IMG/VR virus record: IMGVR_UViG_3300035670_010988
Location: 1 to 43,212 of that record
Length of the DNA: 43,212 nucleotides
Origin: a virus
Reading direction: 5' to 3' (one strand)
The notes below the pieces were generated by a model, which made no database searches, was not told the DNA's origin, and was given only the letters and a program-made list of their open reading frames with translations. The position numbers and the translations under genes are program-made. Shown here one piece after another: positions 7,235 through 41,637 of the stretch (positions are counted from its first letter, which is position 1; each line of letters starts with the position of its first letter).

Positions 7235-7249
7235 TTGTATTTTGTTAGA

Positions 7250-7765: not shown

Positions 7766-7989
7766 TGCATTCTTTTTCTAAAAAATTCTCTCAATTCAGC
7801 TTCCTCTTGGTTAGGTAAAACATAGTCATAGTCATCCATGGACAATACTCTGCCTTCACTAGACATTTCAATAATATTATCTGCTAATGTATGAAGATCC
7901 ATATCTGTTTTAGCATCCTCTCTTGCATATTCAAGTAGACGAATGAACAAAGGAACATCTAGTTTTATTACATCTTTTGGGTTTGACAT
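7762..7989 (-). CDS. Acidic hypothetical protein (75 aa)
   Basis: Starts MSNPKDVIKLDVPLF and is mostly helical, with a charged C-terminus (EEAELREFFRKRMQ). I choose the ATG at 7989, because the box AATATTTATAATA lies directly upstream and the longer frame would run through that box and into the GIY-YIG gene. It is co-transcribed with the leader-bearing protein 7250-7765, which it overlaps by four bases. Function unknown. Confidence 0.7.
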   Translation of the reverse strand: MSNPKDVIKLDVPLFIRLLEYAREDAKTDMDLHTLADNIIEMSSEGRVLSMDDYDYVLPNQEEAELREFFRKRMQ

Positions 7990-7994
7990 ATTTT

Positions 7995-8007
7995 TATTAT
8001 AAATATT
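7995..8007 (-). promoter_or_regulatory. AATATTTATAATA box
   Basis: On the minus strand the sequence reads AATATTTATAATA, ending five bases before the ATG at 7989. It overlaps the stop of the GIY-YIG gene. I read it as a probable late promoter; it could instead be an A/T-rich translation signal. Confidence 0.5.
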
Positions 8008-10116: not shown

Positions 10117-10765
10117 ATACTTTTTTACTAACTAATGAATATGGATCATCATCTTCGTTATCATAGAACCCTAGTTCACGTAACCTAGCAATGTGATATT
10201 CATCCAACTGCATTTGGTCGTTTTGAATTTTCTGAGTTGTTTGGTGAGATTCTAATTTCTCAACATCTTTTTCAGAGAATATCTGGCCATAGTATAGAAA
10301 GTAACAATTATAGCATACAAGGGAAGCATTCCCATTTCCCCAATTTGTTGATTTTCCATCTTTAAAATGCAATATCAAGGGCACTTTATTATCCAAAACT
10401 CTCCTCTCATGAAACCCACACGAGTGGCATTCCTCTTTCCACAACCCCTCAACAACCATCCTATGTTTTAGTTTTTGAGGAGAAAAATGAGATGCATCTA
10501 CCCTACCCTCTATTATATCAAGTAGAGGTGGTTCTTTTCTTTTATAATTCCCACCATTGGCGGCAAACTTTGGAATACCTTTCCCAGATTGGTTCTTATG
10601 TAGTTCAAACAAGGTTTTCCCCGTCTCCTCATCCACATATCTCTTCATCCAATCTTTCAAATGCCAATAAGAACAATTCAAGTAACGTGCTGCTGCACGT
10701 ACCGATTTGGTCTTCTCCATAGCATCTATAATCTGTCCTTTGGTATAATCTTTTCTTCTAGGCAT
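10115..10765 (-). CDS. HNH-like zinc protein with N-terminal helix-turn-helix
   Basis: A 216-aa protein. Residues 8-45 look like a helix-turn-helix (TKGQIIDAMEKTKSVRAAARYLNCSYWHLKDWM). The central part has CHSCGF ... ILHFKDGKSTNWGNGNASLVCYNCYF, which follows the HNH nuclease layout of two CxxC pairs around an HF-DG-N core. HF replaces the usual first HH, so activity may be altered. It could be a homing endonuclease or a DNA-binding regulator. It follows a C4 zinc-finger gene by three bases. Confidence 0.65.
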   Translation of the reverse strand: MPRRKDYTKGQIIDAMEKTKSVRAAARYLNCSYWHLKDWMKRYVDEETGKTLFELHKNQSGKGIPKFAANGGNYKRKEPPLLDIIEGRVDASHFSPQKLKHRMVVEGLWKEECHSCGFHERRVLDNKVPLILHFKDGKSTNWGNGNASLVCYNCYFLYYGQIFSEKDVEKLESHQTTQKIQNDQMQLDEYHIARLRELGFYDNEDDDPYSLVSKKV

Positions 10766-10768
10766 GCG

Positions 10769-10942
10769 TTATTCATCATCCTCTACAAACTCAATATCAT
10801 TCCACGTATCCTCCTTTTCCCCATAAAGTCGCGTCTGTACGCGTTTAGGTTTCATATCAGAACAATCAACACACACTTTGGTGTTTGGCAATGCTTTAAG
10901 TCTTAAAGGGTTAATTTCATTTTTACATTTTACACAGTTCAT
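10769..10942 (-). CDS. Small C4 zinc-finger protein (57 aa)
   Basis: The gene runs from ATG 10942 to TAA 10769-10771. Cys3, Cys6, Cys24 and Cys27 form two CxxC pairs 17 residues apart (CVKC...CVDC), the layout of DksA/TraR-type zinc fingers. A basic segment (KPKRVQTR) and an acidic end (IEFVEDDE) follow. DksA-like phage proteins act on host RNA polymerase, but here the coiled-coil domain is absent, so that role is only possible. It is probably co-expressed with the HNH-like gene downstream. Confidence 0.65.
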   Translation of the reverse strand: MNCVKCKNEINPLRLKALPNTKVCVDCSDMKPKRVQTRLYGEKEDTWNDIEFVEDDE

Positions 10943-10967
10943 ATCATATATTTTTCCAATATGTATG

Positions 10968-11366
10968 TCATATTTTAATTTTTTTCAAAACCCTATACAA
11001 TTGTTTTGGAGTGTTTATGATGTGTTCCTTCCCATCATTTAACCTTAAGGTCAAGTTTTTTCCCTTCTCTTTTTCAGGATAGGACAACACCCACCACATT
11101 ATGATTTGCGCCTTAACCTGTCCATAATATTTATATATCAGCCCCTCTATAATATGGTGTAGTGGATCCTCATATAAGGTCAAATCAATTCCTACCTCCA
11201 ATAGTTGTAGAGTTCTCTCATCCAGGGTAGTTATTGCCTCCAATAGGTTACAGAAGAACTCCTCCTCTTTTCTCTCCAAGGATTTGGGGTTCTCGGTGAT
11301 TTGAACTCCCTCACCCATAAAATCGGTGATGCTTTTTAAAATCTTACCTTCTTCTTTTCTCAACAT
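10968..11366 (-). CDS. Hypothetical protein (132 aa)
   Basis: An unrecognised helical protein with a conserved-looking core (IIEGLIYKYYGQVKAQIIMWWVLSYPE) and a basic C-terminus (TPKQLYRVLKKIKI). I use the first ATG (11366, MLRKEEGK); a longer frame exists only from TTG at 11390. It overlaps the 54-aa gene upstream by 23 bases. No assignment is justified. Confidence 0.7.
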   Translation of the reverse strand: MLRKEEGKILKSITDFMGEGVQITENPKSLERKEEEFFCNLLEAITTLDERTLQLLEVGIDLTLYEDPLHHIIEGLIYKYYGQVKAQIIMWWVLSYPEKEKGKNLTLRLNDGKEHIINTPKQLYRVLKKIKI

Positions 11367-11508
11367 TAAACAGTTTTGTAAATTCTTCAATAGTTAATTT
11401 TTTAATTTTGGCGAACATTTGTGTTGCCTCTTGGTGTGTTTGAGCCAATGTAGAGCCTATGGGCTCTTGGTTTGGGTCGTTTTTACTATAAAAAATGTAA
11501 GTTTTCAT
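11344..11508 (-). CDS. Short protein (54 aa)
   Basis: Runs from ATG 11508 to TAA 11344-11346. It starts MKTYIFYSKNDPNQEPIGS, a strand-turn typical of small phage proteins, and ends in four basic residues (EKRRR). It is the first gene behind promoter 11521-11549 and overlaps the next gene by 23 bases, which suggests coupling. Function unknown. Confidence 0.6.
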   Translation of the reverse strand: MKTYIFYSKNDPNQEPIGSTLAQTHQEATQMFAKIKKLTIEEFTKLFNVEKRRR

Positions 11509-11520
11509 CTTTATGGTTTT

Positions 11521-11549
11521 AATATACGAAAGAAAGTTTGAGTTTACAA
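11521..11549 (-). promoter_or_regulatory. Promoter (TTGT-N19-TATATT)
   Basis: TTGT (11549-11546), 19-base spacer ending TTTCG, TATATT (11526-11521), 13 bp upstream of the ATG at 11508. It re-initiates transcription after the long glycosylation operon. Confidence 0.75.
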
Positions 11550-11585
11550 GGGGTTTTTAATTTGAGGACTGTATATACGTATTAA

Positions 11586-11601: not shown

Positions 11602-12666
11602 TTAGGAAAGTTTTATGAGATCTTTTTGATATTCTGTTAGTGAGTTTATTGTTATTTTTAAATTTCCTAATTCAAATTCTCCTATTTCTCCACTATCTTT
11701 GATTATAGCATTTAGCTGTTGAATTATTTGAAAATCTTGTTGTGAGAATTTGTTTCCATCTATCTCTACTATTATATCCTTCCCCTCATTAAACCATGGT
11801 TCTAGAGCTTGTTTTAGTTGAGGGTTTGGGTTAACTAACTTATAGGTTTTTTTATAAACAGGTGATACAATGGGTTTCATCATATTAGTATGTTGAACAT
11901 TTGTACCCCATTTTTTAATGAAAGCAATAGTTGATTTATCCATATCTTCCTTCCATTTTTTATGTCTTTGCTCATCTCCATCAAATGAACCTGCTCCTCT
12001 ACCCGTAAAATGATAAACAAACCCACTCCATGTTTGGACAAATCCAAACCCAGCTAAATCCATCCTATTAAAAATATCAGAATCTTCTCTACAAGAGTGA
12101 AGGATTGGATCATGTCCACCTAGTATTTCCAAATATTCTTTTTTGTACATCATCCAAGGTGCAAATATACCTTCTGTGGTTGGGATTGTTGGGTTATATT
12201 CTTTAACATATTTGTTAAATTCATCCTCTTTAAATTCTTCAGGGTACACCCCAAAATCTTCTAATATTTTTTCTCCGTTATTTGGATGTAAAGGTGGTTC
12301 AATACGAGTTGCACATACTACTGTTTTTTCTTTCAAGTGTTTATACAACTCATAATCAGCATTTGGGGCCAAAATCATATCAGCATGGAATATCATGAAT
12401 ATGTCTGTGGTTGAATGTTCAATACAATAGTCATATGCTTTTCCAATTCCAAATAAACTTTTACCCAAATTTGGATTTACAAAGTACTTTAAATTATATT
12501 CATCTTTTACTTGTTCTAACCACTCTACCGTCCCATCTTCATCAGAATCAACGAATATTATAATTTCATGGTCTTTTCGGGATGCATTTTCTCTAATTGA
12601 GGGGATACAAGTTTTAAGGTATCTTAAGTTTGATTTACTTGGGATGCAAAAGGTTATTTGTTTCAT
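11602..12666 (-). CDS. GT2-family glycosyltransferase with C-terminal extension
   Basis: A 354-aa GT-A glycosyltransferase. Residues 1-95 are the nucleotide-sugar domain (FCIPSKSNLRYLKTCIPSIR, then IIIFVDSDEDGT), with HADM (about 94-97) in the DxD position. The acceptor half has GIFAPWMMYKKEYLEILGG and HSCREDSDIFNRM, where the ED pair is the likely catalytic base. Residues about 265-354 are an extra helical/beta extension. Sugar donor and acceptor are unknown. It is the last gene of the glycosylation operon, overlapping its neighbour by four bases, and its family resembles 20876-21718. Confidence 0.82.
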   Translation of the reverse strand: MKQITFCIPSKSNLRYLKTCIPSIRENASRKDHEIIIFVDSDEDGTVEWLEQVKDEYNLKYFVNPNLGKSLFGIGKAYDYCIEHSTTDIFMIFHADMILAPNADYELYKHLKEKTVVCATRIEPPLHPNNGEKILEDFGVYPEEFKEDEFNKYVKEYNPTIPTTEGIFAPWMMYKKEYLEILGGHDPILHSCREDSDIFNRMDLAGFGFVQTWSGFVYHFTGRGAGSFDGDEQRHKKWKEDMDKSTIAFIKKWGTNVQHTNMMKPIVSPVYKKTYKLVNPNPQLKQALEPWFNEGKDIIVEIDGNKFSQQDFQIIQQLNAIIKDSGEIGEFELGNLKITINSLTEYQKDLIKLS

Positions 12667-13514
12667 AATGATTGGAGGGCTAAATTAAATATATGTTTAG
12701 TATCATTATTAATTTGAGTTAATTTTTCAGAATTATATTTAATATAATTTACATAAATGGGATTATTTAAATATTTTCTATTTTCTTGTATAGTGATACC
12801 CTTCATAATATATTGGGTAGCATTTAATTTTTTGGATGATTCTGCTATAAATGTATCTTCTAATCCATACCCTTTAACATCTGATGGGAATTGAATTTGG
12901 GATATTAATTTAGAACTTATAGTAGTAAACCAACCACCTGCAAACTTTATATTTTTATTTTGAATTAATTCAACTTCTTGATTGATTGCTTTTACTATAA
13001 AAGGATCAACTGCATTTACATCAGTCCCATCGTAAGGTAAATAACTTAAAGAATCCCATGATTGGTCCCAAAATTTATAAACTTGTGGGGATATAATGTA
13101 TAAATCTTCTTTTACATGTTCAAGCGTTTCTTGTAAATAATAAAAAATATAATCATTAAATATTACATCTAGATCTAATAAAATAAATCCATCATATTGA
13201 TCTGTTAATGTTTGTAAGTATACTCTTTGATCAACAATACCCCAATATTTGTCTGTGTGATTTATTTCAATTTTATTTTCATTAGTCCAATCAAATTTAG
13301 TTAGTATATGATTAAATTTATCTAAAATAAAATCTTTAGAAAGAATACTTTTATCCCAATCAATAATTTCAGTGTTAAGATTTAAAACAATATGAGTATC
13401 TATCAACATGTTATCTGAGGTATATTTAGATGCTACTTTTAATTGGGAAGCAATATTATCAAAATCATCTATTTCTCTAGGGAATATATGGAGTAAAAGA
13501 AGAAATTTTTTCAT
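12663..13514 (-). CDS. Putative GT-A glycosyltransferase
   Basis: A 283-aa protein with FILLDLDVIFNDYIF (about residues 108-123), a DxD-type metal and nucleotide-sugar motif in a Rossmann-like fold. Later come FAGGWFTTISSKLI and GLEDTFIAES, like acceptor-side motifs of glycosyltransferases. No known family is certain. It is AT-rich and Ile/Asn-rich even by the standard of this window. It overlaps both neighbours by four bases and probably adds a sugar in the same glycan as the nonulosonic acid made upstream. Confidence 0.65.
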   Translation of the reverse strand: MKKFLLLLHIFPREIDDFDNIASQLKVASKYTSDNMLIDTHIVLNLNTEIIDWDKSILSKDFILDKFNHILTKFDWTNENKIEINHTDKYWGIVDQRVYLQTLTDQYDGFILLDLDVIFNDYIFYYLQETLEHVKEDLYIISPQVYKFWDQSWDSLSYLPYDGTDVNAVDPFIVKAINQEVELIQNKNIKFAGGWFTTISSKLISQIQFPSDVKGYGLEDTFIAESSKKLNATQYIMKGITIQENRKYLNNPIYVNYIKYNSEKLTQINNDTKHIFNLALQSL

Positions 13515-14371
13515 AATTTGATTAGTTTATTAATTAATTGTTGTTTTTTAAAAGGTGTAATTTCTAAATCATCATATGTTGATTGTTTGAAATCACAATA
13601 TTCTTTACATATTTCTGAACCATGGAGTGAGGTAAGTTTATCTTTCCAAATGGTATTATGAGTTACCATAGCATGGATTTCTTCATTACTCCATTCAAAT
13701 GTTTTTCCATCATAACCATTTGATATACCATTATCACCATATCCAACTACTATTACTTTATCAAATCCCATAAACCAAAGTAATTGAAATAAAATACCAG
13801 ATACATTACCGCCAGGGATTAATTGGAGTGGATTAGTGCCATATCCAATAATACTTTCTGGGATGTCTGGGCTTAATGGGGGATAAGATTCACCTTGTTC
13901 ATTTCTATATTCGATACAAAGGTGGGTGTTAGGTGTTGATTTGCAATATTCTTCTCCATGATGTTTGGGTAATTGACCTGTTGTAAATGAATAATTATAA
14001 ATTGGAAATTCATTACAAGCAATAACTTTAATTAAGTTAGGATTTTGTTGTATAATTTCTTTTTTACCTTGTATCCAAATTGGTTCAGAATCATAATTAA
14101 ATCCTGCTTGATTTCTAAGTAATTTCCCACCAGTAAATTTAAATAAACAAAATTCTTTATCTTCAAAGTATTCTCTTGCAATTGAATTATCAGCAGTAAT
14201 ATACATATCACAATTTGGATATGTTTTAATATTATGGTTTACAGTAATGGTAAAGTTATTAGAAATAATATCTTGGATGTCTTTAACTTGGTTAGTTGAA
14301 GGACCTCCTAAAATACAAAACGCCGTATGACCTTTTGCTATACCTTTCCAATTATCATTTATATAACTCAT
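13511..14371 (-). CDS. DUF115/GT42-like protein, candidate nonulosonic acid transferase
   Basis: A 286-aa protein. It starts with a nucleotide-binding loop FCILGGPSTNQVKDI (about 18-32), then ITVNHNIKTYPNCDMYITAD, and later SGILFQLLWFMGFDKVIVVGYG (about 190-212). This order matches Cst-type sialyltransferases (GT42) and the DUF115 family of flagellin Maf proteins, both of which handle sialic- or pseudaminic-type sugars. The CMP-sugar synthetase and NeuB homologue in the same operon support a transferase role. Alternative: a distant DUF115 protein with another substrate. Confidence 0.6.
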   Translation of the reverse strand: MSYINDNWKGIAKGHTAFCILGGPSTNQVKDIQDIISNNFTITVNHNIKTYPNCDMYITADNSIAREYFEDKEFCLFKFTGGKLLRNQAGFNYDSEPIWIQGKKEIIQQNPNLIKVIACNEFPIYNYSFTTGQLPKHHGEEYCKSTPNTHLCIEYRNEQGESYPPLSPDIPESIIGYGTNPLQLIPGGNVSGILFQLLWFMGFDKVIVVGYGDNGISNGYDGKTFEWSNEEIHAMVTHNTIWKDKLTSLHGSEICKEYCDFKQSTYDDLEITPFKKQQLINKLIKL

Positions 14372-14553
14372 TTATTATTAGCTAATTTTTTAGATAATTC
14401 ATTTATAAGATTATCATCATTAGTAATTCTCTTAAATACTTCTCTTGTTTCTTCAGGAGCATGAGTGAATGCTATACGTAAAATGTCCATCCAATTTACA
14501 TTGTTTTTACCTCTTACTTTCTGGATTTCATCAATAATTTCTAAATCAGTCAT
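14368..14553 (-). CDS. Small helical protein in the sugar operon (61 aa)
   Basis: Starts MTDLEIIDEIQKVRGKNNVNWMDILRIAF and is helical and charged throughout. The pattern IQK.R..NN.NWMD.LR.AF recalls small proteins that accompany NeuB-type pathways, but I cannot name a family. It overlaps the putative sialyltransferase gene by four bases, so the two may work together. Function unknown. Confidence 0.65.
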   Translation of the reverse strand: MTDLEIIDEIQKVRGKNNVNWMDILRIAFTHAPEETREVFKRITNDDNLINELSKKLANNK

Positions 14554-14554
14554 A

Positions 14555-14974
14555 TTATTGTTGTTTAATGTATTTTATTTCATCTAATTGATTGAATCCA
14601 TTCTTTTGGACCATTTTAATTGAAGCTATATTTTCAGGTTTAATTTCAGCTATAAAATTACCTGTTTTATCTTTTAAAAATAATTCAAGAATTTTAGTTC
14701 CATAACCATTTCCCCTTTGATTGGGAGCAATACTCCATGATAAAATATATTTGTTAGTTGCTACATTATCTGATCTAATAGATCCTACAGGAATGTTATT
14801 ATCTTCTAGGATATAAATTTCTCTATATGGATTGAGTAAACTATCGTTGAACCATAATTTATGAGTTTGTTCAGATACTTCTCCTGTTTCAAATGAATTT
14901 TCTCTAGTTGTAGGATCATTTCTCCAATCTAGGAGAATTTTCCAATCGTTATGTGTTGATTTTCTTAATTGCAT
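14555..14974 (-). CDS. GNAT N-acetyltransferase (PseH/NeuD-like role)
   Basis: A 139-aa GNAT-fold protein. It starts QLRKSTHNDWKILLDWRNDP, the RimJ/PseH-type beginning, and has the acetyl-CoA loop QRGNGYGTKILELF (about 88-101, Q/RxxGxG/A). By position next to a NeuB homologue and a PseB homologue, it probably N-acetylates the amino sugar precursor of a nonulosonic acid. It overlaps 14965-15942 by ten bases. Substrate not shown by sequence. Confidence 0.78.
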   Translation of the reverse strand: MQLRKSTHNDWKILLDWRNDPTTRENSFETGEVSEQTHKLWFNDSLLNPYREIYILEDNNIPVGSIRSDNVATNKYILSWSIAPNQRGNGYGTKILELFLKDKTGNFIAEIKPENIASIKMVQKNGFNQLDEIKYIKQQ

Positions 14975-15942
14975 ATAAAATCGTCTTCATTATAATCTCT
15001 ATCTGCTGTTTTACCTAAAGTAAATTCAAAATGTTTTGCAGGTATATTTCCTTCTAAAAATGGTCGTTTAGTTGTAATATTATCCTCAGTTAATATATCC
15101 CCTTTCTTAATATCAGTTTTAGCTACTACTGAACGCATTGCTTGTTTGAATGATTGTTCTGATTCGGAGTATTGGTTAAGTTGGGGAGTAATGGTTAATT
15201 CTGCTTGTTTAATTAAATCAATCATTTCTTTTAATTGATTAGGTTCCAAAGCAAATGGATGATCAGGGCCTGGTAAATGTCTGCTTAGAGTAAAATGTTT
15301 TTCAATTACTGTTGCTCCCATAGCTACAGCTAAAGCAGGAGTTAAAGTAGACATAGTATGATCTGAGAATCCGGTTTTATATCTAGAGTCTAAAGATAAT
15401 GATTGAACTATTTTTAATCCAGCATCTTGCATTGGGGTAGGATAAGCATTATTACAATGCATTAAAGTTAAATCATTTCCGTATTTGTCTGCTATTTCAA
15501 ATATTTTACCTAAGTAATTCATTTCAAACCCAATACCTAAAGAAATAACTAAAGGTAATTTAGCTGAGGCAACCATATCAACAAATCTGAAGTCGGTTGA
15601 TTCGAATCCTGCTATTTTGAGACGTTTAACACCTAGGGCAACTAATTCATCAACTGCTTTTTCATCAAATGGTGTTGACATAAATTCAATACCTTTTTCA
15701 TCACAGTATTGTTTTAAATCTTTTTGCCATTCACGTGGTAAGGCAATATCATCAATTAGTTTATTAATATCTTTATAACCAGCAAAATCAGGAGTGTTTT
15801 TACTATATAAAGTATTTGATGAATATGTTTGAAATTTACAAGCAGATGCTCCAGCTTCTAAAGCAACATCAATTAATGATAGTGCTTGTTTAAAATTTTT
15901 ATTATGATTAGCTCCTGCTTCTGCTATTACAAATGTGTTCAT
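14965..15942 (-). CDS. neuB: Nonulosonic acid synthase (NeuB/PseI/LegI family)
   Basis: A 325-aa enzyme that condenses phosphoenolpyruvate with a 6-carbon amino sugar to give a 9-carbon nonulosonic acid. It has a TIM-barrel core with EAGANHNKNFKQAL (about 8-21), KFQTYSS, MSTPFDEKAVDELVALG, KIAGFES, LMHCNNAYPTP, GFSDHTMSTL and EKHFTLSR. The C-terminal SAF domain (about 265-325: MRSVVAKTDIKKGDILTEDN) completes the family length. Neu, Pse and Leg synthases cannot be separated reliably here. Neighbouring genes supply dehydratase, aminotransferase, acetyltransferase and CMP-transferase. Confidence 0.9.
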   Translation of the reverse strand: MNTFVIAEAGANHNKNFKQALSLIDVALEAGASACKFQTYSSNTLYSKNTPDFAGYKDINKLIDDIALPREWQKDLKQYCDEKGIEFMSTPFDEKAVDELVALGVKRLKIAGFESTDFRFVDMVASAKLPLVISLGIGFEMNYLGKIFEIADKYGNDLTLMHCNNAYPTPMQDAGLKIVQSLSLDSRYKTGFSDHTMSTLTPALAVAMGATVIEKHFTLSRHLPGPDHPFALEPNQLKEMIDLIKQAELTITPQLNQYSESEQSFKQAMRSVVAKTDIKKGDILTEDNITTKRPFLEGNIPAKHFEFTLGKTADRDYNEDDFICN

Positions 15943-16748
15943 ATTAAATATTTTAATAACTTATTTGCTTCTTCAAAACTATTTATACAATGTGCATTAT
16001 TTTTAACGCAATTAACAAAATACTTTATTTCTTCAACATACATATCATTTTTTATTTCAAAATGTACTCTACGTAATATATCCCCTTCTAAAATATCAAA
16101 ATAACGATGGTATTCTTCTGAAAGATAGTTTAAAGTAAAATCAGCTATAGTTCCATTTTGAAACTCTATTCTACCAATAACTAAATCTTCAGTATCATTT
16201 GTTATATTTGTTAACTTATTTTTAATATACGAAATATTTTTTATATCTCCAAATTTAGAATAAAGATAATCCAATTCATGTATAACATCTAAAAGTACTC
16301 CACCTCCCAAATGCTTATTAGCACTATACGATTTTAAGTGATCAGTTTGTGATCTCCATTTTTTTAAATCATACCCAAAGTAAACGTTAATATATTTTGA
16401 ATTTGGATTAATTGATTTTACTTCGTCTGTAAATCGTAGATTACATCCCACCATTGTGGTTAAATCTTTTTTTTTAATTATATTTAATAATTCTTCAACC
16501 CCTTCATTTGACGAATAGAATGGTTTTTCACAAAATATAGGGATATTATATTGAGCTAACTTAATACAATGTTCTATATGTTTTATATTTGGAGAACAAA
16601 CAAAACCTAAATCAAAACCTTCTTGCAATATATCATCTATATTATCAATTTCATCTATATCAACTATTTTAGTTTGGATTCCTAGATTATTCAAATTAGT
16701 AGAATGTCTTTTTCCAATTGAGCCTCCTCCTATTATAATTGCTTTCAT
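15939..16748 (-). CDS. Gfo/Idh/MocA-family NAD(P)-dependent oxidoreductase
   Basis: A 269-aa protein with the Rossmann start IIIGGGSIGKRHSTNL (residues 4-19), the family CEKPF motif (about 93-97) and an alpha/beta C-terminal substrate domain with GGVLLDVIHELDYL (H-x-x-D-x-x likely catalytic). Such enzymes accompany NeuA/NeuB genes in some surface-sugar clusters and probably tailor the sugar nucleotide. It overlaps both neighbours by four bases. A consensus promoter lies inside it at 16224-16252. Slightly short for the family (usually 300-370). Confidence 0.85.
   Translation of the reverse strand: MKAIIIGGGSIGKRHSTNLNNLGIQTKIVDIDEIDNIDDILQEGFDLGFVCSPNIKHIEHCIKLAQYNIPIFCEKPFYSSNEGVEELLNIIKKKDLTTMVGCNLRFTDEVKSINPNSKYINVYFGYDLKKWRSQTDHLKSYSANKHLGGGVLLDVIHELDYLYSKFGDIKNISYIKNKLTNITNDTEDLVIGRIEFQNGTIADFTLNYLSEEYHRYFDILEGDILRRVHFEIKNDMYVEEIKYFVNCVKNNAHCINSFEEANKLLKYLI
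16224..16252 (-). promoter_or_regulatory. Internal promoter inside the oxidoreductase gene
   Basis: TTGG (16252-16249), N19 ending TTTCG, TATATT (16229-16224): a perfect match, including the TTTCG, in codons for a GDIKNISYI segment. It would start a shorter transcript beginning with neuB. Chance occurrence in AT-rich DNA is possible. Confidence 0.5.
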
Positions 16749-17434
16749 TTGTTTAAGTATAATTTTTCTGCTACTTCAAATTGCCAAGGCCAATCAATAT
16801 CAAAACATTCAATTTCTTCCATTACAAAGAAATTAGGATTGCCTGGTTCTTTAAAAGTTCCCATATAAATTCCGTTTGCAATATCTTCTGTAGATCCCGC
16901 GTACAATGAATGGGCTGCTTCATAACAGGTTTCAACAAACTTAGTCTCTAATGTAGCTAAGTATTTATCTTCTCCAAAGAAACGATTTAACATTTTACCT
17001 TCATTATCAAATAAAAATGTTTTTTTCTCAAATACTCCAAATAAACCATTTGAATCTACCTCTAAAAATTGCTTAACAAAATTATCTATTGTTTCTACTT
17101 TTAATAGTGGGTTACAAGCATTAATGATTACAAAGTGTTTGAATGGAAGTTTATCATGCCATTCTAGGGCTTTTTGTAATGTAACGGGTTCTTGAGTTGA
17201 TTCCTCACTTCGAACAAAATAATTTACATTATGTTTTCTAGCAATTTCAATCAATTCATCATCCATAACTGAAAGATAAAAGTTATCTTTTGGGATGATT
17301 GATGATTGGAGTACTTTCTCAATTGTTATTTCAAATAAACTTGAGTGAGCAAATGGTCTAAGCATTTTATTTGGAACACGGGTTGATTGTGTTCGAGCTT
17401 GAATTATAAAAACGGTGTCTTTAATGTTTTTCAT
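16745..17434 (-). CDS. CMP-nonulosonic acid synthetase (NeuA/PseF-like cytidylyltransferase)
   Basis: A 229-aa sugar-nucleotide transferase. Residues 9-24 hold the N-terminal nucleotide loop IIQARTQSTRVPNKML (Q-A-R-x-x-S-x-R-x-P-x-K). Next come NYFVRSEE and ACNPLLKVETIDNF (the T.P-type loop), with FDIDWPWQFEVAE near the end, where D-x-D-x-P-x-D is typical of CMP-NeuAc/Pse synthetases. It charges the NeuB product with CMP. Adjacent to the aminotransferase gene (one-base overlap). Confidence 0.82.
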   Translation of the reverse strand: MKNIKDTVFIIQARTQSTRVPNKMLRPFAHSSLFEITIEKVLQSSIIPKDNFYLSVMDDELIEIARKHNVNYFVRSEESTQEPVTLQKALEWHDKLPFKHFVIINACNPLLKVETIDNFVKQFLEVDSNGLFGVFEKKTFLFDNEGKMLNRFFGEDKYLATLETKFVETCYEAAHSLYAGSTEDIANGIYMGTFKEPGNPNFFVMEEIECFDIDWPWQFEVAEKLYLNK

Positions 17435-18711
17435 TAGCTATTTTTTCTAAAGATTGCAGTACCACGTTTACCTTCTAATGCAGAATCAATATTATTTATA
17501 TTTTTACTCACAAACTCAAAAGCTTTATCAGCAGCATCAATTGTTTTTTGAATATCTTTCTTCGTATGTGAAAAATTGATATAAATAACATTCGGAAATA
17601 ATATATTTTGTTTTACCATTTCTTGATAAAATAAATATTTTAACCCATCTGCATCTTCATACGTTTCTGGGTTAAATGTTAGGTTATGTCTTGGGGCATC
17701 TCCAGCAAATATTACATCTAAATTATGTTTTTTGGCTGCATTTTTAATACCAACATCCAACATATTTCCAAGTTCCCAAATATGATTATAATCTTTAGTT
17801 TGTAATTCTTTAACAGTAGCAATAGCAGCTGCTATAGATAATGCTTCACCACCAAATGTCATTGAGAAGAAAGCATGATTCAATTCATTCATGTATTCTG
17901 CTTTACCAGCAATAATACCTAAAGGCATCCCGTTAGCTACTGCTTTTCCCATACAACATAAATCAGGGGTAACTCCAAAATATTCTTGAGCCCCACCTAA
18001 ACTCCATCTAAACCCAGTTACTACTTCATCAAAAATAAGTACGGCTTTATATTTAGTACATAATTTTCTAACACCTTCTAAAAATCCTGGTTTAGGGGTG
18101 GTTAAGGCTTGGGGTTCAATAATAACACCCGCAACGTCTCCTTTTTCAAGTAATTTCTCTAAACTTTCAAGATTATTATATTCGAATTCACCAATTAATT
18201 CTTTTAAACAAGATGGTACTCCATATGGTCTCATTGAAATAGCATGCCAATCTCCCCAACCATGATAACCACCTGCTGGTTTAAGGATTTTTTCTTTACC
18301 AGTATATGAGCGAGCAATTCGAACAGCAGCCAAATCAGCATCAGTACCATTCTTACAGAATCTAACTTGTTCAGCACAAGGGACTACATCTGAAATTAAT
18401 TGGGCTAATTCTTGTTCTAATAATGTAGGCCAAGAAAATATGATTCCATCTTTAAGTTGTTTTTTAATGGCTTTATTTGTTGATTTGTGATTATATCCTA
18501 AAATAATAGGACCTAAAGCACACATGTAATCAAGATACTTTTTTCCATCTAAACCATACAAATAAGCTCCTTTTCCTGATTTTACAAATTTAGGATAAAC
18601 CCCATCAACAAATTGATCAGGACATTTACTCATCGTTTGAGTACCTCTAGGCATTAACCTAAGAGCATTCCCCCAGAGTTCTTCTTCATTGATTTTTTTT
18701 CTAGTTAGCAT
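17434..18711 (-). CDS. Class III PLP aminotransferase (GSA aminomutase-like)
   Basis: A 425-aa PLP-dependent enzyme. It has GTDADLAAVRIARSYTGKEKI, AGGYHGWGDW, the Asp-containing IFDEVVTGFR (PLP ring), and GKAVANGMPLG with the likely Schiff-base lysine. It is of the glutamate-1-semialdehyde 2,1-aminomutase subfamily, members of which act as sugar aminotransferase-like genes in surface glycan clusters; a role in haem synthesis is unlikely here. I start at ATG 18711, which has AAAGGA seven bases before it; the longer frame uses TTG. It overlaps 18701-19711 by 11 bases. Confidence 0.82.
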   Translation of the reverse strand: MLTRKKINEEELWGNALRLMPRGTQTMSKCPDQFVDGVYPKFVKSGKGAYLYGLDGKKYLDYMCALGPIILGYNHKSTNKAIKKQLKDGIIFSWPTLLEQELAQLISDVVPCAEQVRFCKNGTDADLAAVRIARSYTGKEKILKPAGGYHGWGDWHAISMRPYGVPSCLKELIGEFEYNNLESLEKLLEKGDVAGVIIEPQALTTPKPGFLEGVRKLCTKYKAVLIFDEVVTGFRWSLGGAQEYFGVTPDLCCMGKAVANGMPLGIIAGKAEYMNELNHAFFSMTFGGEALSIAAAIATVKELQTKDYNHIWELGNMLDVGIKNAAKKHNLDVIFAGDAPRHNLTFNPETYEDADGLKYLFYQEMVKQNILFPNVIYINFSHTKKDIQKTIDAADKAFEFVSKNINNIDSALEGKRGTAIFRKNS

Positions 18712-19711
18712 CTTGTAATCCTTTTTCAATTAATTTAATTAAATATTCTTTATCATGATTTAAGAAAATCCCTGAGTTGAACTCAGGGCCATCATATTTT
18801 TTAAGGGGATATTCTTTATTTGTAAATTGTGGGATAACACAAAGTAATCTATTACAATGCTCTGTTGTAAACCCATCTAAAAATTTAGATTCGTATGTAA
18901 AAGGTAATTCTGTTTTAGCAATCATATCTTCATGAAATTTTTCCCCGGGTCTCATTCCAACAACTTTATATTTAATTTTTTTATCTAATTTAAGAGATAA
19001 TGATTGAATAATAGTTTCCATATCAAATGAATCAAAATAAGGAATAAATACCTCTCCTCCAATACTGTTGATTAATGAAGATAAAACCGTGTTAACTGCA
19101 TCTTCTAATGTAAATAAAAATCTGGTGCAATCTAATGATGTAACATTAATGTTTTTATCTTGAGATAATAAATCCACCCATAATGGAATAAATGAACCTC
19201 TACTTGCAATTACATTTCCGTATCGTACTGAACTAAAAATGGTGTGGTTTGAATTATGATCAAAATTGGAGAATAAACGTTCAGCGGTAAATTTAGATGC
19301 TCCATAGACATTAATAGGAATACATGCTTTATCTGTTGATACTAAAATACATTTATCAACCATAGCTTCTAAACAAGCATTAGCTACATTAATAGAACCT
19401 TGAATATTTGTTTTAACACATTCTTCAGGGTAATATTCCATATCATCAATTCGTTTTAAAGCCGCAGTATGGATAACATAATTTGGTTTATATAAACGTA
19501 ATGTTTTAGATAATTGTTCATAATCCCTTATATCGCCAATTACTCGAATAATTGATTTGTCTTGACCGAAATATAATGCTTGTTTACCTTCGTCTCTACT
19601 GTATACAATTATTTTACAATTGTATTTTTTTAATTTTTGGATAATAGCTCTACCTAAAGAACCAGTACCTCCTGTAATCAAAATTGTTTTGTTGTTAAAA
19701 TTATCAGCCAT
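18701..19711 (-). CDS. UDP-GlcNAc 4,6-dehydratase-like SDR (PseB/FlaA1 family)
   Basis: A 336-aa extended short-chain dehydrogenase. The NAD(P) loop is ILITGGTGSLGRAI (residues 10-23). Then come VIHTAALKRIDDMEYYPEECVKTNI, VSTDKA (catalytic D-K) and YGASKF (Y-x-x-x-K), followed by SVRYGNVIASRGSFIP and MRPGEKFHEDMI, both PseB/CapD signatures. The enzyme removes water from and usually inverts UDP-GlcNAc, the first step towards pseudaminic acid or related sugars. It is the first committed enzyme of the operon. Confidence 0.86.
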   Translation of the reverse strand: MADNFNNKTILITGGTGSLGRAIIQKLKKYNCKIIVYSRDEGKQALYFGQDKSIIRVIGDIRDYEQLSKTLRLYKPNYVIHTAALKRIDDMEYYPEECVKTNIQGSINVANACLEAMVDKCILVSTDKACIPINVYGASKFTAERLFSNFDHNSNHTIFSSVRYGNVIASRGSFIPLWVDLLSQDKNINVTSLDCTRFLFTLEDAVNTVLSSLINSIGGEVFIPYFDSFDMETIIQSLSLKLDKKIKYKVVGMRPGEKFHEDMIAKTELPFTYESKFLDGFTTEHCNRLLCVIPQFTNKEYPLKKYDGPEFNSGIFLNHDKEYLIKLIEKGLQDAN

Positions 19712-19712
19712 G

Positions 19713-20873
19713 TTAATTGTATATGTTTATTAAATAATTTGCTATTCTTTGGGATGCATTACCATCATTGAATTCATCATATAATTCTAGCAATGCCGTA
19801 TTGTCATATTCGAATTTTTGATTTAAATCTACGACATCTTCATACGGTTTCAAAATATTTTTAAATTTACTCATAAACAAATCGTATCTATCTTTAAATT
19901 TTTCTATTCTATGTTCTCCTATTTTTTCTACAAATTCATCCCATGAATTAACATTCATTAATGGAGCCCAAAAATTATATTCATTTCCCTTAAAATTTTC
20001 TAAATCCATATCAAACATAACTCCACTATCATCTGAGTCAACATAATATACTGTTTTATTGAAGTATAATGGATAGTACATAACTGATGTAATAACCCCA
20101 ATATGAATATCTCCTAATTGGGAGAATGAATACATTTCATTTTCATCTCTAATTAGTCTAAATTGTGGAGATGGGGTGAGATTATTTTCTGTAAAATCAC
20201 TAGGAAAATCTGTAAATTCTTTTGGGTGTGGTTTATAGAATAAATGATGAGTTGAACCATATTTACTTTCTAATTCTTTGGAAATATTAATAATGTTTGG
20301 TCTAATATTATCTTCCATTGAACCATATAAAACTATTACTGGTTTGGTTAGGTTATATTTCTGTTGAATGGTTTCTGTTGGGACATTTTTTAAAATGTCA
20401 AATTTAGGGATACCTGTTACAATAGATTTTCTTTTAATCCAACCCGCTTCAAGTTTAGATTGATATGTCCATGTACTATGATCAAAGAAAACATCAATCA
20501 TATTTGTTGGAAATTTCATTCTACTTAAAATTTCTAATCTAGTTTTTATATTATTATAAAGCCAAGATGAATTTTCTAAATTACATACTATAGCCCCAAT
20601 TTGTTTAAATTCTATTATTATATTTGTTTCAGGTAACCATGATTCTCTAGTAATTAAAACTATGTCTGGTTTGAATGGGAGTAGAAATCCAACTGATTTA
20701 GATTCAAAATTAGGGTAAGTAAAGTAATCTATATTTGATTCATATCCAAATTGACCATCTGTAGGGTAAACAAAAATATAGTCACAATCTCTTTGTGATA
20801 GTTCATTAACCACATTCTTTACTTCAATATATCCTCTATTATCAGAAGCATATATTAATATTTTTTTTCTCAT
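19713..20873 (-). CDS. GT-B-fold transferase (CDP-glycerol phosphotransferase-like)
   Basis: A 386-aa protein. The N-terminal half has a Rossmann-like start (KKILIYASDNRGYIEVKNVV) and KPDIVLITRESW. The C-terminal half has PVIVLYGSMEDN, HHLFYKPHPKE (a KPHP motif, common to CDP-glycerol glycerophosphotransferases and related capsule proteins) and LGDIHIGVITSVMYYPLYF. It may transfer a sugar or polyol phosphate, or be a hydrolysing 2-epimerase relative (NeuC-like fold), which the pathway otherwise lacks. Two bases separate it from each neighbour. Confidence 0.6.
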   Translation of the reverse strand: MRKKILIYASDNRGYIEVKNVVNELSQRDCDYIFVYPTDGQFGYESNIDYFTYPNFESKSVGFLLPFKPDIVLITRESWLPETNIIIEFKQIGAIVCNLENSSWLYNNIKTRLEILSRMKFPTNMIDVFFDHSTWTYQSKLEAGWIKRKSIVTGIPKFDILKNVPTETIQQKYNLTKPVIVLYGSMEDNIRPNIINISKELESKYGSTHHLFYKPHPKEFTDFPSDFTENNLTPSPQFRLIRDENEMYSFSQLGDIHIGVITSVMYYPLYFNKTVYYVDSDDSGVMFDMDLENFKGNEYNFWAPLMNVNSWDEFVEKIGEHRIEKFKDRYDLFMSKFKNILKPYEDVVDLNQKFEYDNTALLELYDEFNDGNASQRIANYLINIYN

Positions 20874-20875
20874 GT

Positions 20876-21718
20876 TTAAAATTGTTTGATCATTCCATAT
20901 TGATCAAATTGAGGCATTTTTCCCCATTTTGATAACCATTTTTGAGCATTGTCTGCTTCTGCTTTTCTTTGACGATCTGAAGATCGACCGTTATTTTCTT
21001 CTAATCTATGGCTTCCTCTAGCTCCAAAATGCCATACTATTGAAGATGAAGGTAGGATAAAACGAACACTATGTTGTAACATTCTTAAAAATAAATCATG
21101 GTCATCCCAAGATGTAGGAGCAAATAATGGATCATTTCCTCCAACTTCATCCCATAATGATTTTTTAACTAACCCGGAAACACCTTCACCTTTAGGAATT
21201 TCATAACCTTCATTCATTTGTTTAAATTCTTCTACCCAATTCTCAAATGAAGCACTATCAAAATCATGATAGTATGCTCCAAACATATCCAATGGAATTA
21301 AAGATGTTCCATATCTATCTGGGGAGTTAAATATGTTAGGTTCTATTCTATATGAATTCACCCATAATTTTTCATTTGGGTACTTTTCATGGATATCTAA
21401 TAATGCTTTATCCCAATCTTTAGTTACATAAAAATCAGAATGTAAAAAGTTAATAAACTCTGTTTTTACTTTATCTGCACAAAAGTTCATCCCACCCCCA
21501 ATCCCTAGAGGTACATCATTTTTATCTATATAATATTCTAGGTTATACTTATCTTGATTTTCCTTTAACCACTCATCAGTCCCATCTGTGCAATTTTCAG
21601 CATGGATAATAAAAGGAGCATCTTTAAAATAACTATTTTTTCTAACAGATTTAATAGCCAGTTTTAAATATGGAAGATTATTATAAGTAGATATACAAAA
21701 TGTCAATGGGTTCATCAT
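20876..21718 (-). CDS. GT2-family glycosyltransferase
   Basis: A 280-aa GT-A enzyme. It starts LTFCISTYNNLPYLKLAIKSV, with EYYIDKNDVPLGIGGGMNFC and FLHSDFYV (HSD at the DxD position). The acceptor domain has GVSGLVKKSLWDEVGGNDPLF and SWDDHDLFLRM (W-D-D-H-D, catalytic base). It is related in layout to 11602-12666. Its start overlaps the stop of the 56-aa gene by ATGA. Donor sugar unknown. Confidence 0.82.
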   Translation of the reverse strand: MMNPLTFCISTYNNLPYLKLAIKSVRKNSYFKDAPFIIHAENCTDGTDEWLKENQDKYNLEYYIDKNDVPLGIGGGMNFCADKVKTEFINFLHSDFYVTKDWDKALLDIHEKYPNEKLWVNSYRIEPNIFNSPDRYGTSLIPLDMFGAYYHDFDSASFENWVEEFKQMNEGYEIPKGEGVSGLVKKSLWDEVGGNDPLFAPTSWDDHDLFLRMLQHSVRFILPSSSIVWHFGARGSHRLEENNGRSSDRQRKAEADNAQKWLSKWGKMPQFDQYGMIKQF

Positions 21719-21885
21719 TTCTTCTGTAATTTAACAAATTCTCTAACTTTAGCTCCTAACTCTTGATCATTTGGGTATGAGTTAGTTAAACTTGTGATAA
21801 TATCAAGTTTTAGTTTTAAGTCTAAATATTTAACCTTATTGTTAAAGTTATCTTTTTCTAAGCCAGTATACACCTCGTTACTCAT
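21715..21885 (-). CDS. Small helical protein (56 aa) between two glycosyltransferases
   Basis: A complete gene: ATG 21885, TGA 21715-21717. It overlaps the genes on both sides by the same ATGA junction, which is strong evidence that it is translated. The protein is helical, Leu/Lys-rich (NNKVKYLDLKLKLDIITSL) and ends basic (VKLQKK). Its role is unknown; it may assist the flanking transferases. Confidence 0.65.
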   Translation of the reverse strand: MSNEVYTGLEKDNFNNKVKYLDLKLKLDIITSLTNSYPNDQELGAKVREFVKLQKK

Positions 21886-22505
21886 ATCGTCTCGTAAAAC
21901 TTGTTTTGTTTTTCTTGTCTTTCTATTTGTTTTGGATGAAATAAAGACATCTCTAAAGCCTCAGGAAATTTTGTCCACGTTTTAAATCCTGTTATTTTTT
22001 CATGCACTTTACCTTCCCATTTAATTGCAGGATCATTTCGATAAAGTCTCATTTGATAATCGGGCCAATTCACCCATCCATGTTCATTTACTCTCCAGCC
22101 CCATTTTTGAACGTGTGCGTCGGTTAAGCCTTCAACTGTGTTGACTCTAGGTACCATACAAACATCAAAATCATTTGACTCTATAATGTTATGAAGGTTT
22201 TCTATTAAGAATTCATTTGGAATCTCATCTGCATCTATTTGAAAGATGTAGTCGCCTGAGCAATGTTTGGTTAGGTTGTTTTTAAATTGAGCGAAGTCTT
22301 TGTCAAGCTCATGAATTAAAAAAGTAATATTATCCTTTATTCCATCACTTGTAAGATAGGTATAAACACCATTATCTAGTTGACCTCCATTATCTTGTTG
22401 CACAACAATCTCATCTTCCTCTCGTTTATGTTTGAGGATGAATGGAATCAAACGTTTGATTTCCTCTATTTCGTTACAGACTGTTATTGCGTAAGAGATT
22501 TTCAT
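21882..22505 (-). CDS. GT2-family glycosyltransferase (short)
   Basis: A 207-aa GT-A protein. It starts ISYAITVCNEIEEIKRLIPFI, with DEIVVQQDNGG and FQIDADEIPNEFLIENL (DAD metal motif, about 91-95). The segment QMRLYRNDPAIKWEGKVHEKI is the family's acceptor-side motif of waaE/KdtX-type transferases. Such enzymes add glucose or other hexoses to LPS cores, but the donor here is unknown. It overlaps the genes on both sides by four bases. Confidence 0.8.
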   Translation of the reverse strand: MKISYAITVCNEIEEIKRLIPFILKHKREEDEIVVQQDNGGQLDNGVYTYLTSDGIKDNITFLIHELDKDFAQFKNNLTKHCSGDYIFQIDADEIPNEFLIENLHNIIESNDFDVCMVPRVNTVEGLTDAHVQKWGWRVNEHGWVNWPDYQMRLYRNDPAIKWEGKVHEKITGFKTWTKFPEALEMSLFHPKQIERQEKQNKFYETI

Positions 22506-23469: not shown

Positions 23470-23498
23470 AATATATTAATTATTTTTTATATTTCCAA
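23470..23498 (-). promoter_or_regulatory. Promoter (TTGG-N19-TATATT) beginning inside a homing endonuclease
   Basis: TTGG (23498-23495) lies in the last codons (TGG of YIWKYKK) of the GIY-YIG gene, followed by N19 and TATATT (23475-23470), 13 bp before the ATG at 23456. The spacer lacks TTTCG, so it is a weaker match. Confidence 0.55.
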
Positions 23499-24296: not shown

Positions 24297-25601
24297 TTAC
24301 CCATTTTGGGGTTCAACTTTACTCAATTTGGGGAGTTGAATGCGTTTGAGGGAGGGCAATTGCAATTGAACTTGTTTTGGGAATTCTGGGATTTTATTGT
24401 CGAGTATTTCTCCAAGTTTTTCTTTCATTTTTTCAAAGGAGAAGTTTGTACGTGATTTATATCCTTGACGTTTCCCTTTATCTACATAGTTTTTATAGTT
24501 TTCAAAAACATCTTTCAAGTATTGACCTACATGACCTGTATCAACGCTAAACCATTCTGCTTCTTGGAGAAGCATATTGTTTGCTGCAGATGGATGAACT
24601 TTTGTCATATTTCCTGGGAGTAGAGTTGTGAATTCGGGGTCTAGGAAATCTGTATGGCCACTCCAATTTGTTGTGATGATTGGTTTGTTTGTTAAGCTGA
24701 ATTCAAGTAGAGGTCTACCAAATCCTTCCCCTTTAGTTAGGTTAACCATTGCTTTAACTTTGGAGTGATTGTAGATGGAGTTCATTTCCTCATCTGTAAA
24801 ATCTCCATGTAAAAGATACACATTGGGTAGTTTAGTTGCTTTTACTGTTGATTTGATTGCTCTAATTCTTTTTAACAATTCATCACGATCCATATATGAT
24901 GTTGAGACTGTTGAGGTTTTTAAAATGAGAGCAGGTGCTTTAGATTTGTTTTTGAATGTTTCAAAAAATGCTTTGATAAGCAACCCAACATTTTTTCTAT
25001 CCTCACCCATTTGTCCTTGCATCCAATGTCCTACAAAAAGATATGCAAAATCTTCTTTAACATTAAAATCTACTTTACAAGGTGAATTATCAGGTTTATA
25101 AACTTCTGTATTTGCTCCTTCAAACAATATTTCACTATCTCCTGTCCACTCAATATACCCAACAACTTGTTGTGTTCTTTGATCTCGTTTTTCAAATTTA
25201 GAATTTTTCAAAACATCAATTGTATGTTTTGAGGATCCAAGTACTAGATTCATTCTTTGACAACCTTCAACCCACTCTGCAGGAGCAATTGTGGTTTCAA
25301 TTCCTGCTGTAATTAAACAATTCCATTTTCCAACTTGCTGGGCTTCTGAAGGGATGGTGATCCAAAACATAATGTCGGGTTGGGATGATAGTTGGGGGGT
25401 GAAGTACTCCTCTAAAAATTTCCATTCTGGGTTTTCATTTATGAAATTCATAGAGGTATTTCCCCACCTACAAGGGATAATTTTAATATCCCATTCATCT
25501 TTTTTTAACTCAATAATAGCTTTAGCTATATCTCTACTTCGAGCTCCGTAACCTGAAAAGGTTTGTACTGGGGCGTATATTGCGCATGTTGTTTTATTCA
25601 T
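24297..25601 (-). CDS. GT4-family glycosyltransferase
   Basis: A 434-aa GT-B enzyme. The N-terminal domain has FSGYGARSRDIAKAI (residues 15-29) and SSKHTIDVLKNSKF. The C-terminal Rossmann domain has FLFVG-like AYLFVGHWMQGQ, NVYLLHGDFTDEEMNSIYNHSK and the E-x7-E block KGEGFGRPLLEFSL (about 290-303), with NWSGHTDFLD. This is a retaining transferase; donor unknown. The C-terminal tail is Lys/Gln/Pro-rich. It is followed directly by a homing endonuclease. Confidence 0.87.
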   Translation of the reverse strand: MNKTTCAIYAPVQTFSGYGARSRDIAKAIIELKKDEWDIKIIPCRWGNTSMNFINENPEWKFLEEYFTPQLSSQPDIMFWITIPSEAQQVGKWNCLITAGIETTIAPAEWVEGCQRMNLVLGSSKHTIDVLKNSKFEKRDQRTQQVVGYIEWTGDSEILFEGANTEVYKPDNSPCKVDFNVKEDFAYLFVGHWMQGQMGEDRKNVGLLIKAFFETFKNKSKAPALILKTSTVSTSYMDRDELLKRIRAIKSTVKATKLPNVYLLHGDFTDEEMNSIYNHSKVKAMVNLTKGEGFGRPLLEFSLTNKPIITTNWSGHTDFLDPEFTTLLPGNMTKVHPSAANNMLLQEAEWFSVDTGHVGQYLKDVFENYKNYVDKGKRQGYKSRTNFSFEKMKEKLGEILDNKIPEFPKQVQLQLPSLKRIQLPKLSKVEPQNG

Positions 25602-27273: not shown

Positions 27274-28710
27274 TTAATATAATAATTCGTGTGAAACATA
27301 TTCATCTTGGGTCTCATTGGCATTGATGAATTCAAATTTTACTCGTGGTGTCCACGTTTCAAAAAGTTTATCTAGCGCGTTTATTACACGAACCCCCATC
27401 AACTCACCTGTGAAACCTGCCTCATCAGACAATGCCCATTCTCTACCGGCTTTACCTAACTCTTTACGTTCTTCTCTACTCATATTGTATAGCTCAACCA
27501 AATGTTCAGTTGCATCTTCAGGTTTACATCTGTCATCCCAAATATAAGGTGTTTTAGGTGAGCCTTGTAACGAACGGTTAGTTGGATATACTGGGAAGGC
27601 CCACCTACCATGTCTCAGGTATTTACCTGTATGATTAGAAGGTACTTCAGGGGTTGGTGTGTACCACTCTCCATTTTCATCTTCAAAACGCATTTGATCT
27701 TGCATTCCACCTGTTACATTTGCTATAATGGGTGTACCTGCTAAAATAGCCTCTGTTAAGGTAAGACCCCAACCTTCATTTGATGTTAACAAGATTTGTG
27801 CATCTGCTATATTATATAGCATGTTTAGTTCTTGTTGTGGAAGTTTGGATTGAGAGAAATAGATAGCATTTGGATAGTCTTTAAACAATACTTTTCTAAC
27901 TGCCTCTAAATCTGTCCCATGTTCACTTACTACTTCTGTGTGAAGAATAAAAGCACATTTTTCTGCTTCTTCTTTTGGCAAACGATCTAGAAAATATCTC
28001 CAAGCCAACATTGCATCTGGAATTTGTTTTCTTCGGATGTTTCTAGAATTAAAAAATAGTATAAAGTTTTTTTCTTCTCCTGCAAACACATTCTTTTTAA
28101 AAGAAACCATAGATGGATCGTTGTCAGGAATGGGGTAGTATAGTTTTTCGTTCAGACCATGTGGAACATATTCTAGGATTTTACCTTTTGCTTTATCCCC
28201 TAAAACTAGCTCATTGATGAGTTTTGTTTGTTTTGAAATCGCTAACAACGCATCACAAGCCTCATAGTATGGTTTGTTATACATTGGAGTTGGAAAATCA
28301 TCCCAAATGTTAAGATAGATAATTGGGGTTGTTTTGCGGATTTCTGCCTCCATAGCAAACAACCATTCAAAGTATCTTGGATCTGTGATGATCATGATGG
28401 CATCTGGTTTTTCTACTTGGATAAACTGACGAAGTAGGTCAGGAGTGCCATATCCATCTACAGGATAGAGAAAAACAGATGAATCATCTATCCCAGCATT
28501 TTTATTGGTGTCTGCTGAAATGTCAAAACGTTTTCCTTTTTCAGGGTGTTGTATTGCTCCTGCTATGTTTACCCAATTAAAGTGCTGAGCAGTGTTGATG
28601 ACAATCTCACGAGCAACTGTTGCTACACCTGAATGTACTCGAATATCATCACAGATTAGCAAGATTTTTTTCCTCTCATTTTGAGGGAGATAACCGAATT
28701 TTTCTTTCAT
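27274..28710 (-). CDS. GT4-family glycosyltransferase
   Basis: A 478-aa GT-B enzyme. The N-terminal domain has ILLICDDIRVHSGVATVAREIV (residues 15-36) and DAIMIITDPRYFEW. The C-terminal domain has FILFFNSRNIRRKQIPDAM, ILHTEVV and the E-x7-E block SNEGWGLTLTEAILAGTPII (about 305-325), then NVTGGMQDQM. A retaining transferase; donor unknown. The C-terminus ends in an acidic tail. It follows the RHH gene 28759-28932 by 48 bp and heads the glycosyltransferase stretch. Confidence 0.88.
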   Translation of the reverse strand: MKEKFGYLPQNERKKILLICDDIRVHSGVATVAREIVINTAQHFNWVNIAGAIQHPEKGKRFDISADTNKNAGIDDSSVFLYPVDGYGTPDLLRQFIQVEKPDAIMIITDPRYFEWLFAMEAEIRKTTPIIYLNIWDDFPTPMYNKPYYEACDALLAISKQTKLINELVLGDKAKGKILEYVPHGLNEKLYYPIPDNDPSMVSFKKNVFAGEEKNFILFFNSRNIRRKQIPDAMLAWRYFLDRLPKEEAEKCAFILHTEVVSEHGTDLEAVRKVLFKDYPNAIYFSQSKLPQQELNMLYNIADAQILLTSNEGWGLTLTEAILAGTPIIANVTGGMQDQMRFEDENGEWYTPTPEVPSNHTGKYLRHGRWAFPVYPTNRSLQGSPKTPYIWDDRCKPEDATEHLVELYNMSREERKELGKAGREWALSDEAGFTGELMGVRVINALDKLFETWTPRVKFEFINANETQDEYVSHELLY

Positions 28711-36257: not shown

Positions 36258-38201
<1,944 letters not shown>

Positions 38202-41608: not shown

Positions 41609-41637
41609 AAAATAATAAAAATATTTTAAATCTCCAA
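41609..41637 (-). promoter_or_regulatory. Promoter (TTGG-N19-TATTTT) between polymerase halves
   Basis: TTGG (41637-41634) lies inside the last codons of the polymerase N-terminal gene, N19, then TATTTT (41614-41609), 15 bp before the ATG at 41594. The -10 is weaker than consensus. It lets the 92-aa, motif C and clamp genes be transcribed apart from the first half. Confidence 0.6.

Follow-up and report, generated by a model that had tools for sequence, protein, structure and literature searches.

Bacterial pathways for pseudaminic (Pse) and legionaminic (Leg) acids (PseB-PseC-PseH-PseG-PseI-PseF and the Leg equivalents) combine a dehydratase, an aminotransferase, an N-acyltransferase, a NeuB-family synthase and a CMP-sugar synthetase in one operon. 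Clusters in Pseudomonadota and a Legionella locus (PMC3694923) contain the same set of nonulosonic acid (NulO) enzymes together with a class III aminotransferase (AT3). Among phages, the epaA-epaB genes of an Acinetobacter prophage alter a NulO (PMC12053666), and Acinetobacter prophage O-acetyltransferases are reported as phage-encoded NulO tailoring enzymes (PMC6586298). Whereas these prophage genes tailor a NulO made by the host, the locus described here, in the viral record IMGVR_UViG_3300035670_010988 (43,212 nucleotides, analyzed over its whole length and referred to as the window), carries most of a NulO backbone pathway. No paper on a phage-encoded NulO backbone pathway was found in the open literature, with most subscription journals outside the scope of the search.

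The cassette includes seven open reading frames (ORFs) between 13511 and 19711, all intact and all on the minus strand, and six of the seven match Pfam families far above chance (Table 1). An earlier note, made from the DNA letters alone, had read seven adjacent genes here as a nearly complete NulO route. Their coordinates and strand were confirmed, a small ORF of 61 amino acids (aa) had been overlooked, and the type of pathway is borne out by family matches for a PseB-like dehydratase, aminotransferase, N-acyltransferase, NeuB and CMP-sugar synthetase. This gene content gives good support to the prediction that some NulO is made by the cassette. Unlike the bacterial Pse/Leg pathways, the phage set has a class III aminotransferase in place of DegT, an extra Gfo/Idh/MocA oxidoreductase, and neither PseG nor NeuC; all of its enzymes score under the curated cut-offs. 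The unusual aminotransferase class proposed earlier is thus correct, and no DegT-type aminotransferase (PF01041) is present in the window record. Many further viral contigs carry the same gene set (NeuB identities of 45-100%), and the cassette is real and recurrent in uncultured phages (>50 viral contigs).

To compare cassettes, 54 IMG/VR contigs carrying this NeuB clade were used, near-identical or badly cut ones having been removed by hand. PseB is present in 50 of them, the CTP-transferase in 51 and an N-acyl- or formyltransferase in 50. AT3 occurs with Gfo/Idh and without DegT in 14/54 contigs (type A), and DegT without AT3 in 38/54, one of these with Gfo/Idh. A single contig (L237) has both aminotransferases, its DegT being a short stray copy (208 aa) at another place in the locus, and in one contig neither was seen. 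Gfo/Idh accompanies AT3 in 15 of 15 AT3 contigs. Across whole virus records, Aminotran_3 was found in 16 and full-length DegT in 6, with both at full length in none. The class III aminotransferase therefore marks one of two exclusive cassette versions, and the exchangeable region sits between conserved glycosyltransferase flanks in the viral relatives.

On the CTP-transferase tree, the version changes only twice (shuffled mean 12.4; 0/500 shuffles as low), compared with 5 changes on the PseB tree (shuffled mean 10.9; 0/500) and 10 on the NeuB tree (shuffled mean 13.3; 12/500). In these statistics the sequences, being related, do not count as independent, and NeuB could be uncoupled from the version by recombination alone. 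With a smaller set, the version changed once for the CTP-transferase, 3 times for PseB, 6 times for NeuB and once for the GT-B gene that adjoins PseB. By its few changes, the CTP-transferase, which would activate the final sugar and looks SpsF-like, is tied to the choice of aminotransferase, whereas the synthase is largely common to both versions.

Several cassettes carry additional genes. Some DegT-type relatives (L004 at 6603-8040, and similarly L007 and L016) have a second, shorter NeuB of 276 aa with no SAF match, which adjoins a HAD-like protein; L004 also has a YhcH-family protein. A metallo-beta-lactamase-fold protein of ~444 aa is present in seven cassettes (L242 at 10231-11562 and six other contigs), and we take it to be reminiscent of CMP-Neu5Ac hydroxylase.

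A functional synthase is expected to retain its catalytic residues. The phage NeuB can be aligned with solved NeuB, PseI and SpsE structures, and the residues that we take to be catalytic in Neisseria meningitidis NeuB (E25, K53, K129, E134, N184, Y186, H215, E234, H236, D247 and R314) correspond in the same order to E8, K36, K109, E114, N165, Y167, H195, E214, H216, D227 and R293. These 11 positions are invariant or nearly so across 21 phage copies, and the catalytic residues on which the earlier note had staked its reading are kept at the sequence level. The scores fall under the cut-offs of both TIGR03569 NeuB (290.6 vs 399.65 bits) and TIGR03586 PseI (250.9 vs 340.25 bits). In one clade (support 100/100; stem 1.06 changes per column) stand all 23 main copies from phages, separate from PseI, N. 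meningitidis NeuB, SpsE and the bacterial-cluster copies, in a tree whose references are approximate (three PDB sequences and NCBIfam-scored genomes). The comparison with Neu and Pse clades suggested earlier thus yields a distinct phage-only clade but no grouping with the Pse, Neu or SpsE references. SpsE, from the Bacillus subtilis sps genes, is the second-best PDB match of the phage NeuB (1vli, 9e-50), yet lies outside its clade. Since the clade sits outside the references and under both cut-offs, NeuB does not give a name for the product sugar. In 50,697 records of deposited phages, just three have even a distant NeuB (25-32% identity).

AT3 likewise forms a phage-only clade (stem 0.92 changes per column), whose nearest bacterial kin lie in NulO clusters. 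The best bacterial relatives found came from 399 genomes of a single phylum, the one to which a Rhodospirillales genome belongs, and lie in the Pseudomonadota clusters, which are ordered PseB-DegT-aldo/keto reductase-CTP-transferase-AT3-PseG-NeuB. One such cluster also has a formyltransferase and PIG-L, as do some of the phages, and in three bacterial genomes the CTP-transferase and AT3 share one frame; stop-free frames were used in GC-rich genomes, where the ORF caller, preferring the longest ORF, makes mis-calls. The bacterial clusters retain DegT, the aldo/keto reductase and PseG, whereas type A phages are without all three and have Gfo/Idh. Thus, AT3 is added to DegT in bacteria and replaces it in phages. 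A scan of genome contigs with narrow AT3 motifs (YHGWGDW, LMPRGTQT) returned distant bacteria alone, including many Thermoleophilia, and many of the Thermoleophilia matches were without detected NulO neighbours. The literature found on class III aminotransferases in NulO clusters consists of one paper, which lists the same gene set in the O-antigen locus (lp6_763-775) of L. pneumophila serogroups 6 and 12 (PMC3694923). Capture of a HemL as the source of AT3 was rejected (hemL model, 278.9 vs a cut-off of 527.3 bits).

Before condensation, the sugar is expected to be released from UDP by a PseG/NeuC-type hydrolase, which the earlier note had found missing. This gap was confirmed and is conserved. 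A search of the window together with 24 related viral records, at E values up to 1, gave no match to PseG (TIGR03590) or Epimerase_2 (PF02350, the NeuC family), and 0 of the 54 cassette loci have either hydrolase. No unassigned gene is general enough to be a hydrolase candidate; the commonest unassigned family occurs in 25/54 contigs, and an example of it joins a PhyH-like dioxygenase and an FkbM methyltransferase in one protein. The hydrolase would thus come from the host, or be a protein that escapes recognition. More distant viral contigs (L295, L296, L298 and L299; NeuB 39-40% identical) carry DegT, NeuB and PseB with an Epimerase_2 homologue, and some phages may therefore encode a NeuC-type step. 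A 206-kb viral contig (L318) has DegT, NeuB, PseG, CTP-transferase and AT3 together, as in the bacterial clusters.

Following activation, the sugar is expected to be transferred to an acceptor. The gene at 13511-14371 had been labelled DUF115/GT42-like. Its product has no significant Pfam match of its own, and PF01973 (MptE-like, DUF115) matches weakly in three of six close relatives (best E value 0.0058); the label, DUF115 or GT42 (PF06002), is thus weak. Profile comparison with hhalign was uninformative (10.5% against an MptE set; 0.5% against one CST-I-like sequence of doubtful frame). A structural assignment was abandoned, since the AlphaFold2 model was unusable (pLDDT 52) and a fold search with it meaningless. 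An MptE-like/DUF115 transferase is therefore a weak lead for this gene.

Taken together, we regard it as moderately probable that the unit is a phage cassette for biosynthesis and transfer of a NulO sugar, in its type A version, which borrows a host hydrolase. In the proposed order, the PF02719 dehydratase would produce UDP-4-keto-6-deoxy-HexNAc, to which the class III aminotransferase and its constant Gfo/Idh partner would add an amino group. The GNAT enzyme would acylate this group, and a host hydrolase would release the sugar from UDP. NeuB would then condense the freed sugar with phosphoenolpyruvate, and the CTP-transferase would activate the product with CMP. Finally, the GT-B and GT2 proteins, and perhaps the MptE-like protein, would transfer the sugar within the cytoplasm, with a virion protein as the most likely acceptor. 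The chemical steps, their order, the identity of the sugar, the supply of hydrolase by the host and the acceptor are all inferred. Several points weigh against this proposal: the acceptor and transferase assignments are guesses, the absence of the hydrolase everywhere could mean a different chemistry, and bacterial AT3 accompanies DegT, so that AT3 as the sole sugar aminotransferase is unproven.

The phage pathway would be complete if the GT-B protein encoded directly upstream of PseB were the UDP-sugar hydrolase, as the earlier note had hinted from its fold. Its AlphaFold2 model (pLDDT 90.7) does belong to the fold class of NeuC and the 2-epimerases, its N-terminal half has conserved acidic residues, and its gene adjoins PseB wherever present, in both versions. 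However, the model matches 2-epimerases, NeuC and TagF/TarL about equally (TM scores near 0.5), and hhalign favours PF04464-type (CDP-glycerol-type) transferases (95.5%) over Epimerase_2 (13%) and PseG (0.7%). PF04464 itself matches 7 of 16 GT-B members (best 3.9e-5), the window protein reaching 16.2 bits against a gathering cut-off of 22.1 bits. The GT-B gene is moreover missing from 32 of the 54 cassettes, which also lack PseG and NeuC. A hydrolase role thus appears improbable, and the protein is more likely a transferase. A different question is when AT3 acts. Gfo/Idh could oxidize a side-chain hydroxyl of the NulO and AT3 then aminate it, with host enzymes providing the C4 amino group; type A would then yield an extra-aminated NulO from a NeuB product common to both versions. 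Such a late role would fit the shared NeuB and the last-acting CTP-transferase that follows the aminotransferase. It would also fit the bacteria, where AT3 stands alongside DegT and, in three genomes, lies in one frame with the CTP-transferase. In a prophage, C8 of pseudaminic acid is the reported target of a CTP-transferase-reductase fusion (PMC12053666). Yet phage AT3 substitutes for DegT, which would be odd for an enzyme with a different job, and PseB too partly follows the version (5 changes). We consider the late role rather unlikely, and C4 amination in place of DegT is favoured over it only slightly.

The destination of the product is also debatable. Enzymes of a prophage alter capsule nonulosonic acids in Acinetobacter (PMC12053666), and the sugar predicted here could similarly be placed on the host surface instead of the virion, where it would mask a receptor or exclude superinfecting phages from the cell. 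This would require export machinery of the host, since at the threshold used no transmembrane-like segment was found in any protein of the unit, which encodes no export machinery, flippase or polymerase. Because the unit encodes no membrane protein, glycosylation in the cytoplasm, perhaps of virion proteins, is favoured as the simpler reading, and such proteins would be a natural acceptor for a T4-like phage; the host-surface role is a serious, if less likely, rival. That the cassette is passive, decaying host DNA carried by chance is scarcely credible: its enzymes all have bacterial relatives, but it is intact and syntenic across dozens of contigs, and its NeuB and AT3 form the deep phage-only clades described above.

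We tentatively propose, with less confidence than for the cassette itself, that phages possess two interchangeable NulO kits (one with DegT, the other with the class III enzyme and Gfo/Idh) built around a phage-only synthase, and that the class III kit makes a product unlike known NulOs. As both kits are without the hydrolase, their hosts would have to make a NulO of their own, and this pathway would be diverted to virion glycosylation. If so, phages encode most of a sialic-acid-like backbone, beyond the tailoring enzymes known from prophages, and aminotransferase modules are swapped beneath a common synthase. The two versions would then be a natural variant set for testing which enzymes fix nonulosonic acid structure, and the conserved absence of the hydrolase gives a sharp prediction on usable hosts.

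The record is viral by its T4-type DNA polymerase (PHROG 262, 8e-104), clamp loader and phage GroEL, and is probably a genome fragment. Bacterial contamination was ruled out by the phage replication genes and by synteny across contigs. Between 21718 and 11602 the genes stand tightly packed, with intergenic spacing of -29 to +2 bases, which suggests that 11 long ORFs and the 61-aa ORF (a 12-ORF unit) form one transcription unit.

Table 1 Genes of the packed unit and of its conserved upstream flank.
Feature	Coordinates	Strand	Evidence and remarks
GT2 glycosyltransferase, first gene in packed unit	20876..21718	-	PF00535 1.8e-13; 2-base gap to next gene
GT-B fold protein, directly upstream of PseB gene, candidate transferase	19713..20873	-	AlphaFold2 model, profile comparison
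PseB-like UDP-GlcNAc 4,6-dehydratase	18701..19711	-	PF02719 1e-75; PseB model 2.1e-79, under curated cut-off
Class III (GSA-type) aminotransferase, AT3	17434..18729	-	PF00202 (Aminotran_3) 2e-49; PRK06209 3.7e-97
CMP-sugar synthetase	16745..17434	-	CTP_transf_3 2.4e-14, an assignment at family level; PseF model 3.5e-11, under cut-off
Gfo/Idh/MocA oxidoreductase, obligate AT3 companion	15939..16748	-	GFO_IDH_MocA 7.8e-13
NeuB-family nonulosonic acid synthase with SAF domain	14965..15942	-	NeuB 8.5e-67
GNAT N-acyltransferase	14555..14974	-	PF13302 1.1e-11; PseH model 5.6e-10, under cut-off
Conserved 61-aa ORF	14368..14553	-	no Pfam family
Possible MptE-like/DUF115 protein, weak candidate transferase	13511..14371	-	PF01973 weak in 3/6 relatives
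Protein without Pfam match, found in some relatives	12663..13514	-	4-base overlaps with neighbours
GT2 glycosyltransferase, last gene of packed unit, conserved cassette edge	11602..12666	-	PF00535 2.4e-16; conserved flank
GT2 glycosyltransferase, conserved upstream flank	21882..22505	-	PF00535 1e-8
GT4-like glycosyltransferase, conserved upstream flank	24297..25601	-	PHROG 2170, 7.9e-18
GT4-like glycosyltransferase, conserved upstream flank	27274..28710	-	PF00534 1.1e-9; PHROG 2170

The 61-aa ORF has no match among deposited phages, and its sequence recurs at the C-terminal end of formyltransferases (L004, L010 and L013) and of one GNAT (L006). Elsewhere in the window, two ORFs (41626-43212 and 40383-41315) make up the T4-type DNA polymerase, separated by an ORF of 92 aa at 41316-41594. 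The GroEL homologue (PHROG 5725) lies at 36258-37904, and an ORF judged by eye to be small heat-shock-like at 38637-39050. Homing-endonuclease-like ORFs are found at 23480-24259 (PHROG 314) and, by sequence similarity, at 32650-33240 and 8006-8767; the first of these lies within the glycosyltransferase flank, and most relatives are without it.

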